From positions 124,001 to 188,000 of the forward strand of contig NZ_JAQMUB010000081.1 of NCBI RefSeq assembly GCF_028330965.1: 64,000 nucleotides of DNA. Reading direction: 5' to 3'. Under the pieces are notes generated by a model, which saw nothing but the letters and a program-made list of their open reading frames with translations, ran no database searches and had not been told where the DNA came from. Below are positions 31,894-37,395 of this stretch, in pieces; positions within the stretch are counted from its first letter, which is position 1; each line of letters begins with the position of its first letter. The DNA is from Oscillatoria sp. CS-180. Its GTDB lineage: Bacteria > Cyanobacteriota > Cyanobacteriia > Phormidesmidales > Phormidesmidaceae. The translations under genes and the position numbers were made by a program.

Positions 31894-32178
31894 CTATTCG
31901 AATATGCGATCGCGCTGCAAATATCTTAAAACGTCGCCCGGATCTTGCCGAATCAAGACGCCATTTTCTGGCACGTCAATTTTAGGACTCCATTCGATGC
32001 GCTCAATACAGCGTCGTAGGTGAAACAGATCAATAGCGCTTTGAGTATCGGCTTCTGTACCAACCAGGTATAGTCGCAACCGTTTATGTCGTCTCGGTGA
32101 ATCCGACGACTCCTCAGGTAACGAAGGTGGCACCGTTTCCATATGAGAAGACGGTGCAAAGTATTGGATATGTATCAC
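31894..32178 (-). CDS. small hypothetical protein (94 aa)
   Basis: I do not recognise the family. The product has a variable, acidic and proline-rich N-terminal third and a compact C-terminal region (RLRLYLVGTEADTQSAIDLF, RRCIERIEWSPKIDVPENG, DPGDVLRYLQRDRI) that looks like an alpha/beta fold with one beta strand at its start. The GTG at 32178 is supported by GGAGGA seven bases upstream; a TTG at 32193 and ATG 35 bases inside are less likely. The gene lies between a perfect 15-bp hairpin and a folded RNA element (32269-32385) whose reverse strand would be its 5' leader. Confidence 0.6.
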   Translation of the reverse strand: MIHIQYFAPSSHMETVPPSLPEESSDSPRRHKRLRLYLVGTEADTQSAIDLFHLRRCIERIEWSPKIDVPENGVLIRQDPGDVLRYLQRDRIFE

Positions 32179-32268
32179 AGGGGATTCCTCCAAAGAATCG
32201 AGTTTGGTGGATTCCCGAAGTCTCAGTTGTTCCTAGACAGTAGCGAGTGTAGGGCAGCCTAGAATAGG

Positions 32269-32385
32269 CATAGCCCGTAACGACAGGCGGGGACTGTCTG
32301 CGGGTAAGGTGCTGGGAGGTGCGCTAACACCATCCCAGTGCCGTCAACCAGCTTCCGGGGATCAAGCTGCACGGAGACAGCTATG
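32269..32385. ncRNA. candidate structured RNA with four-way junction
   Basis: Four nested or adjacent stems are visible. P1: CATAGC (32269-32274) with GCTATG (32380-32385). P2: CCG (32275-32277) with CGG (32301-32303) and inside it GACAG (32282-32286) with CTGTC (32294-32298). P3: CTGGGA and GGTG (32312-32321) with CACC and TCCCAG (32328-32338), one bulged A. P4: CCGT (32341-32344) with ACGG (32371-32374), and inside it CAGCTT (32349-32354) with AAGCTG (32364-32369). P2 and P4 end in loops that share CGGGGA. Strand cannot be decided from pairing; on the minus strand it would be a leader ending 90 bases before the 94-aa gene. I did not recognise a known family with confidence. It lies in the 512-base gap 32179-32690. 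Confidence 0.65.
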
Positions 32386-32471
32386 GTTGTTGATGGTAGT
32401 GTATTTATCTCCCAGAAGCAAGTAATGTTTGATACGAAGTTTCAACAAAACCAGAAGCGCAGGGTTGTCAT

Positions 32472-37322: not shown

Positions 37323-37395
37323 GCTGGTGTAGCTCAGTTGGTAGAGCTGCTGATTTGTAATCAGCCGGTCGCAGGTTCGAGTCCTGTCACCAGCT
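37323..37395 (+). tRNA. tRNA-Thr (anticodon UGU)
   Basis: 73 bases. Acceptor GCTGGTG pairs with CACCAGC; the D-arm is GCTC/GAGC; the anticodon stem GCTGA/TCAGC encloses TTTGTAA, giving anticodon TGT; the T-arm carries GGTTCGAGTCC. CCA is not encoded. Reads ACA codons. Confidence 0.97.

Follow-up and report, generated by a model that had tools for sequence, protein, structure and literature searches.

A repeated structured leader RNA preceding an unnamed small protein family in cyanobacteria

Introduction

What is the role of a 117-base stretch of the Oscillatoria sp. CS-180 genome that holds no open reading frame and is predicted to fold into several stems, and from which strand is it transcribed? 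The stretch (hereafter the box) lies within the window, a piece of 64,000 nucleotides that was analyzed as a whole, and is flanked by genes for a carbon-nitrogen hydrolase and an FMN reductase (Pfam), both on the minus strand. The original prediction, made from the sequence alone, described a four-way junction closed by one stem (P1) and holding three others (P2, P3, and P4), with a loop sequence repeated in two of them, and offered two readings: read from the minus strand, the element would precede a 94-aa gene as its 5' leader; read from the plus strand, it would be a free small RNA. The comparative data presented here indicate that a repeated, unnamed leader RNA is real, that it reaches the start codon at position 32178, far past the edge of the box, and that it most likely switches the translation of its own gene. 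In kind it is a structured translational leader, which is a known class, and it is set apart by its copy number and its fast-changing loops. Among cyanobacteria it would stand out as a structured leader repeated with unusual frequency, before a protein family that is unnamed in the libraries searched.

Results and Discussion

Strand, promoter, and gene linkage

The layout of the unit is given in Table 1. Of 72 leaders (83 RNA loci less ten odd or truncated ones and one with too little flank), 68 have a promoter of the form TTGnnn-N16..19-TAnnnT directly ahead of the RNA start, compared with 3.5 of 72 expected from shuffles, and in 62 of these 68 the distance from the end of the promoter to the RNA start is 4-8 nt. 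A gene of the same family as the 94-aa gene (99 aa if counted from an upstream TTG) follows within 520 nt in 69 of the 83 RNA loci, distant members included. By sample, the gene was found after the leader at 17 of 23 loci in the CS-180 genome itself (25 RNA-model matches less two reverse-strand echoes), 29 of 30 loci from five genomes (drawn from 145 RNA matches), and 23 of 30 loci from 16 more distant genomes (drawn from 91 matches). The presence of a promoter at the RNA start and of a family gene behind it identifies the minus-strand RNA as the leader of one gene family, and the first of the two readings originally offered is strongly supported.

Table 1. Features of the leader-gene unit on the minus strand of the window
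Feature	Positions	Strand	Description	Basis
Box	32269-32385	minus	part of a longer unit of structured 5' leader and gene	
Promoter	32393..32421	minus	TTGCTT-N17-TACCAT, end 7 nt before RNA start	pattern in 68/72 leaders
Structured 5' leader RNA	32179..32385	minus	~207 nt in length	start placed by promoter position and 5' conservation edge
Pa	32365..32382	minus	hairpin, AGCTG/CAGCT	99.0% of cells paired
P1, 5' strand	32345..32360	minus	closing helix, CCCCGGAAGCTGGTTG	covariation, 43 leaders
P1, 3' strand	32214..32229	minus	CAACTGAGACTTCGGG, GGG common to P7	covariation and overlap count
P3	32308..32342	minus	hairpin whose loop varies; sense stem with one or more A-C positions that become G-U on the opposite strand	
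P2	32282..32298	minus	hairpin GACAG-N7-CTGTC; loop 32287-32293 varies among copies	covariation
P6 region	32226..32259	minus	weak in the window copy, clear in relatives	arms from sequence
P7	32180..32216	minus	hairpin containing the Shine-Dalgarno; one A-A mismatch in the window copy	pairing from sequence
Shine-Dalgarno	32187..32191	minus	GGAGG	sequence
Protein gene	31894..32178	minus	94 aa, GTG start; family without a known name	
Hairpin after stop codon	31839..31883	minus	directly after the stop codon; 13-bp inverted repeat	sequence

The 14 loci at which no family gene follows consist of six at which the contig stops within 75 nt, six low-scoring matches, one with a group II intron (L137), and one at which the gene is apparently cut at its start (L148). 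All 20 examined leaders of the 65 in genome G030 are followed by the gene (these are partly the same places as in the 83-locus count), and the two matches examined in G075 (L211 and L226), a genome with 17 weak RNA matches, are followed by no family gene and by a similar repeat-like sequence in both cases. Conversely, 20 of the 27 family loci checked in G046 have a leader match and seven have none, one of the seven being cut off from its own leader. At L148 and L097 (G046:C1:2423800-2425773), a gap of ~1.6 kb separates the best-scoring leader from the remainder of its gene, with an apparent insertion near the start of the open reading frame.

Structure and covariation of the leader

Folded by itself, the box gives a modest signal, with a free energy of -49.7 kcal/mol on the plus strand (z -2.42, 3 of 200 shuffles as good) and -45.0 kcal/mol on the minus strand (z -1.70, 13 of 200 shuffles as good). 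Folding of the whole domain in 15 of the 43 aligned leaders gives mean z scores of -4.3 for the sense and -5.7 for the antisense strand (40 shuffles each). Covariation of the helices was assessed in an alignment of 43 leaders (A3), in which 93% of cells are paired over Pa, P1, P3, P2, P5, and P6, compared with 31-53% for slid controls. Shuffles give 31 cells changed on both sides, and none of 500 reaches the 106 observed; pairs with such a change number 18 versus 12.2 (1 of 500 as high); further pair types, at 35 versus 38.2, are not above shuffles. Changes on both sides occur in four of the five pairs of Pa and in five of the 15 pairs of P1 (93.0% of cells paired over 43 leaders). P6 (89.0% of cells paired) loses some of its pairs when P1 is drawn with all 15, a version with a similar covariation result, and P5 pairs poorly (71%). 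Covariation across the 43 leaders backs P2, P3, and three other helices. Between the helices, the leader alignment contains invariant unpaired positions.

When column pairs were ranked without reference to a structure, the top 90 held 37 pairs that are over 80% complementary (23 in the structure, 2 adjoining it, and 12 outside), as judged from a model-fitted alignment that is biased towards the structure; of its 129 rows the first 93 were used (92 of them distinct, with an effective number of 31.5), and the dropped rows were weak, partial, or reverse-strand. The 12 complementary pairs outside the structure make no evident helix by eye and were discarded as pseudoknot candidates, and nothing consistent was seen by eye in a search for pairing between the P2 and P3 loops within one copy. 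The window copy (G000:C21:156213-156385) scores 114.5 bits against the RNA model R1, the lowest of the main type in its own genome (others 147-160), and 31 of its 44 pairs are standard in A3, with five of the other 13 facing gaps, which is partly an alignment effect.

The fold drawn in the original prediction was correct in part. Folding as such is confirmed. The refuting condition that the prediction set for itself, a lack of compensatory changes, gives a divided outcome: the hairpins P2 and P3 show them, and they do not rise above shuffles in the two remaining stems, which had been called P1 (CATAGC/GCTATG) and P4 (CAGCTT/AAGCTG) and which together pair in 76.9% of cells versus 77.4% in shuffles, with a covariation of 0.144 versus 0.148. 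The four-way junction of that design is therefore unsupported. The suggestion that a repeated CGGGGA loop marks a duplicated binding site is likewise unsupported. The second CGGGGA loop looks like a coincidence: the P4 copy of the motif lies in a strand of the closing helix, and the P2 copy is in a loop that varies among copies.

A possible switch at the Shine-Dalgarno

A hairpin (P7) with at least seven Watson-Crick pairs around the Shine-Dalgarno is present in 65 of 90 leaders (102 non-redundant leaders less 12 without a recognizable Shine-Dalgarno) compared with 6.3% of shuffles, and the remaining 25 lack a P7 of seven pairs. Its arms covary and comprise 41 different pairs of sequences (e.g., GGGGATTCC/GGAATCCCC, GGGTTTCCT/AGGAAACCC, and GTTCTGT/ACAGAAC). 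The TT..GGG that ends P1 falls at the 5' arm of P7 in 49 of the 65 leaders with P7 (a count without a control), so that P1 and P7 have bases in common in most of them. An alternative hairpin that would place the Shine-Dalgarno in its loop (P8) occurs in 42% of leaders and of shuffles alike and was rejected; the ON state would therefore hang on P1 alone.

Transcription would start at the right edge of the box (~32385, minus strand), and the RNA would form the 5' hairpin Pa and a multibranched domain that is closed by P1 and encloses P3, P2, and P6. The GGG with which P1 ends is also used by P7, in its 5' arm, and the Shine-Dalgarno lies in the opposite arm. If P1 forms, P7 would stay short and the ribosome would gain access; if P1 opens, P7 would form in full and cover the Shine-Dalgarno. 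The preferred reading, held at a probability of about two in three, is that this minus-strand leader of ~207 nt is dedicated to controlling the translation of the small gene behind it. The observations on which it draws are the promoter pattern, the helices, P7 with its Shine-Dalgarno, the overlap of P1 and P7, the linkage to the gene family, and purifying selection; a real competition between P1 and P7 and the direction of the switch are what we infer. Weighing against this reading are the number of further pair types, the 25 leaders without a P7 of seven pairs, the low score of the window copy and the mismatch in its P7, the rejection of P8, the loci of G075 and G046 at which RNA or gene occurs alone, and the excess of A-C over G-U in P3 and lower P1 described below. 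The many natural copies provide alignments deep enough for a direct test of this switch.

Variable loops on conserved stems

Among 16 copies in the CS-180 genome, 4-fold sites differ by 0.40 per site on average, second codon positions by 0.03, and the leader without its loops by 0.10. These values indicate old copies in which protein and RNA are both conserved; leader and protein are under purifying selection. The loops of P2 and P3 behave differently. In G079 (seven copies), the difference is 0.168 at 4-fold sites versus 0.624 in the P2 loop and 0.544 in the P3 loop, and the corresponding values are 0.409, 0.580, and 0.495 in G018 (six copies), 0.413, 0.607, and 0.518 in G046 (ten copies), and 0.396, 0.542, and 0.479 in the CS-180 genome (16 copies). 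The copies compared are subsets of the 14, 40, 24, and 25 matches in these respective genomes, mixed-type copies having been dropped. The P2 loop differs more than the 4-fold sites in 19 of 21, 13 of 15, 35 of 45, and 86 of 120 copy pairs. In G079, the P2 loops of the two closest pairs are 100% and 71% different, compared with 4% at 4-fold sites; the P2 loops are identical in another G079 pair, which differs by 8% at 4-fold sites. The number of distinct P2 loops is 14 of 16 in the CS-180 genome, 6 of 8 in G079, 8 of 8 in G018, and 11 of 11 in G046, and the 92 distinct leaders carry 72 P2 loops, 58 P3 loops, and 89 combinations of the two. Such fast-changing loops suggest an RNA partner specific to each copy more than a single shared metabolite, and loops that outrun synonymous sites on static stems call for a partner that can be searched for.

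The opposite strand as a possible source of the trigger

Copy-specific loops avoid cross-talk in plasmid copy-number control and among paralogous type I toxin-antitoxin systems. Fast-changing hairpin loops, paralogous copies, and a small open reading frame after a structured leader are features of ColE1 RNA I, R1162, and type I toxin-antitoxin systems, and the present element resembles them in all three respects; loops that diverge fast on conserved stems are a trait of antisense-controlled units that is present here. It is possible, if on the doubtful side, that the trigger of the switch is a plus-strand antisense RNA of the same copy, whose P2 and P3 hairpins would kiss the loops of the leader and thereby lock or free the Shine-Dalgarno, the loops differing from copy to copy to prevent cross-talk. 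The excess of loop change over 4-fold sites fits this explanation, whereas the G079 pair with identical P2 loops speaks against it.

The pairing of the helices carries further information on the strand. Over the helices of the sense strand, with one P3 column left out, G-U cells outnumber A-C cells by 111 to 44 (with that column, A-C rises to 80), as expected for a sense RNA, and this is clearest in Pa (14:1) and upper P1 (63:3); the other ratios are 17:10 in P6, 5:3 in P2, 7:8 in P5, and 4:11 in lower P1. On the sense strand, the outer stem of P3 has no G-U cells and its mismatches are 44 A-C cells without exception, which means that it pairs fully on the other strand. One column accounts for 36 of these 44 cells, a concentration that, together with the sense signature of Pa and upper P1, weakens the antisense explanation, and the other eight come from few lineages; as the seven rows in which that column is paired carry a neighboring A-C, none of the 43 sense stems is free of A-C. 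The antisense version of P3 is the more stable one in 43 of 43 leaders (by 6.1 kcal/mol on average), and so is that of P3 and P2 taken together (43 of 43). Either the sense RNA favors a weak or protonated A-C pair at this place, or an antisense RNA uses the hairpin.

In a search of the plus strand, a good promoter was not found. Some types have a TAAAAT-like hexamer, with no consistent -35, and a -10 (e.g., TAAAAT) directly ahead of P2 belongs to one of the three top-scoring promoter-like sites of the plus strand in 27 of 68 leaders, a count made without a shuffled control that lends the antisense explanation some favor. An intrinsic terminator on the plus strand after Pa was rejected: the pattern matches in the window copy, with one found versus 1.0 expected, and other types have no T-run by eye. 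The free small RNA of the original prediction thus retains the opposite-strand signature of P3 and lacks a good promoter. The element also differs from the copy-control systems in that the antisense RNA is only a candidate here and the R1162 model scores 16.5 bits (E 3), and from type I toxins in that its protein is a charged domain of 94 aa and not a short hydrophobic membrane peptide. The broader picture, of a genome-wide set of nearly identical small genes in which the two loops of each copy are read solely by its own antisense (or other matching) RNA, is speculative and rather unlikely as it stands; if true, one protein could be switched on through any one of its copies, some 20 or more in number and each with a separate address.

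The protein and the possibility of feedback

The protein is encoded at 20 places in the CS-180 genome, 15 of them at least 95% identical to the query over the full length. Searches with 43 members returned nothing credible from Pfam, NCBIfam, PHROGs, PADLOC, or PDB sequences. AlphaFold2 predicts a beta-alpha-beta core, with a mean pLDDT of 72.6 for the 94-aa protein; a shorter relative encoded in the same genome reaches 81.4. The predicted fold has no Foldseek match at E 0.001, and its best VIA-align row (Z 4.0, rmsd 3.5, 55 aligned) is at a level that the tool calls common; rows for ACT-, MinE-, KH-, and dodecin-like folds were at noise level and were rejected. An arginine-rich stretch, RRHKRLRL, precedes the fold. 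Distant relatives annotated "hypothetical protein" occur on plasmids of Nostocales, and the RNA model finds nothing credible at six fetched loci of this kind (best 8.3 bits), so the protein seems more widely spread than the leader. The leaderless relatives on plasmids of Tolypothrix, Nostoc, and Calothrix (L182, L183, and L184) lie near tyrosine recombinase/phage integrase genes.

Ribosomal-protein leaders are dedicated to one gene and act through translation control. The present element shares both features with them and differs in its unknown protein, its many copies per genome, and its hypervariable loops. By analogy with many ribosomal proteins, the small protein might bind its own leader and shut off its own translation. 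The constancy of the gene family after the RNA, distant members included, and the arginine-rich stretch with the predicted core are compatible with such feedback, which is nonetheless improbable: none of the searches indicates an RNA-binding function, a protein that is nearly the same in 15 copies leaves the fast divergence of the loops unexplained, and the plasmid relatives have the protein without a credible leader match.

Comparison with known RNAs

No family in Rfam (4227 models, at gathering cut-offs and at E up to 10) covers the element; the best scores are that of the R1162 model for the window copy and 27.6 bits in L063, each versus a cut-off of 55. The one match at gathering level within the window is a tRNA gene (37323-37395, plus strand). 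Cyano-1 (RF01701), Cyano-2 (RF01702), and 6S RNA, against which the original prediction proposed a check, are absent from the Rfam matches; these too are structured cyanobacterial RNAs, and the element differs in being tied to one downstream gene family. Among the literature matches listed, in which subscription journals are little covered, neither the RNA nor the gene family is described.

To our knowledge, hypervariable loops in many copies are unusual for riboswitches, and the unit is followed at 69 of the 83 loci by one unnamed gene family and not by pathway enzymes or transporters. Both facts make it unlikely that the multibranched domain is an orphan riboswitch that binds a metabolite or ion, although its invariant unpaired positions between helices and the overlapping Shine-Dalgarno hairpin are riboswitch-like. 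Cyanobacterial 5' leaders such as the Downstream-peptide and glnA RNAs (RF01704 and RF01739) offer a parallel in position, since the element too lies in the 5' UTR of short open reading frames; it differs in that neither model matches at E up to 10 and in that it is a multibranched domain of ~175 nt. In favor of a riboswitch, the Downstream-peptide motif also precedes short open reading frames: 634 RNAs of this motif are reported, and the open reading frames, 17-100 aa long, have no known family (PMC2864571).

Distribution and mobility of the unit

The DNA of the leader (32230-32420) has 18 matches in its own genome including itself, the others being 73-79% identical, and matches at E 0.001 in 9 of 95 related genomes, its own included. 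Matches to the RNA model number 25 in the CS-180 genome, 40 in G018, 65 in G030, 24 in G046, 14 in G079, and 2 in G005. With strict filters and the best 7 matches per genome scored, the model is found in at least 87 of 388 genomes of the class and 44 of 159 genera, and the protein profile in at least 137 of the 388 genomes (best 13 candidates per genome scored). The relatives recovered under a name comprise three filamentous cyanobacteria (CCP3, CCP5, and CCT1) and a single cyanobacterial MAG. Searches of plasmid DNA and of phage proteins gave no match.

Similarity between copies spans the promoter, the RNA, the Shine-Dalgarno, and the 94-aa gene and stops at about the stop codon. Beyond it, the palindromes vary among the copies of the CS-180 genome (L040-L058), several being of a few types that recur by eye (CCCCGGTTTCT..., GGCGATCGC...). 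The unit could be a small mobile cassette whose RNA mainly serves its spread. The usual extent of within-genome similarity, from the -35 region to the stop codon, would suit a cassette, as would flanks that are random upstream in six of seven pairs and downstream in five of seven (4-fold difference 24-50% where countable), and near-identical leader starts with different left flanks in the CS-180 genome. The two closest pairs, however, retain some downstream similarity, one pair has a common upstream flank, and one element stands between the same flanks in G035 and G038. With no transposase seen, with neither terminal repeats nor target duplications visible at the ends inspected, which coincide with functional gene ends, with a second small gene family nearby at 16 of 108 loci, and with the protein under purifying selection, a mobile cassette is very doubtful.

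The translational leader remains the preferred reading, and several further observations concern the surroundings of its copies. Nearly identical leader starts lie at three contig ends (L143, L145, and L146, on G000 contigs C75, C36, and C42), and as the left flanks differ, the assembly may hide further recent copies. CRISPR-like repeats (Rfam matches below cut-off) occur near a copy in L011 (G051:C90, 47-875). The second small protein family, which has no Pfam match and is itself repeated, was seen in the fetched flanks at L013, L014, L064, L066-L069, L081, L088, L089, L099, L100, and L106, plus L063, L091, and L113; in 13 loci it lies 0.6-1.1 kb upstream of the 94-aa family gene and is oriented away from the unit, and some loci may represent the same place in related species. 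In another copy, L178 (G000:C66:35500-38889), a group II intron (Rfam RF02012 and RF00029) lies inside the leader, in the 5' arm of P7; its reverse transcriptase is 588 aa long and includes maturase and HNH domains. A copy in another genome (L085) is preceded by a closely similar intron 3' end, which suggests that the leader may be a repeated homing site.
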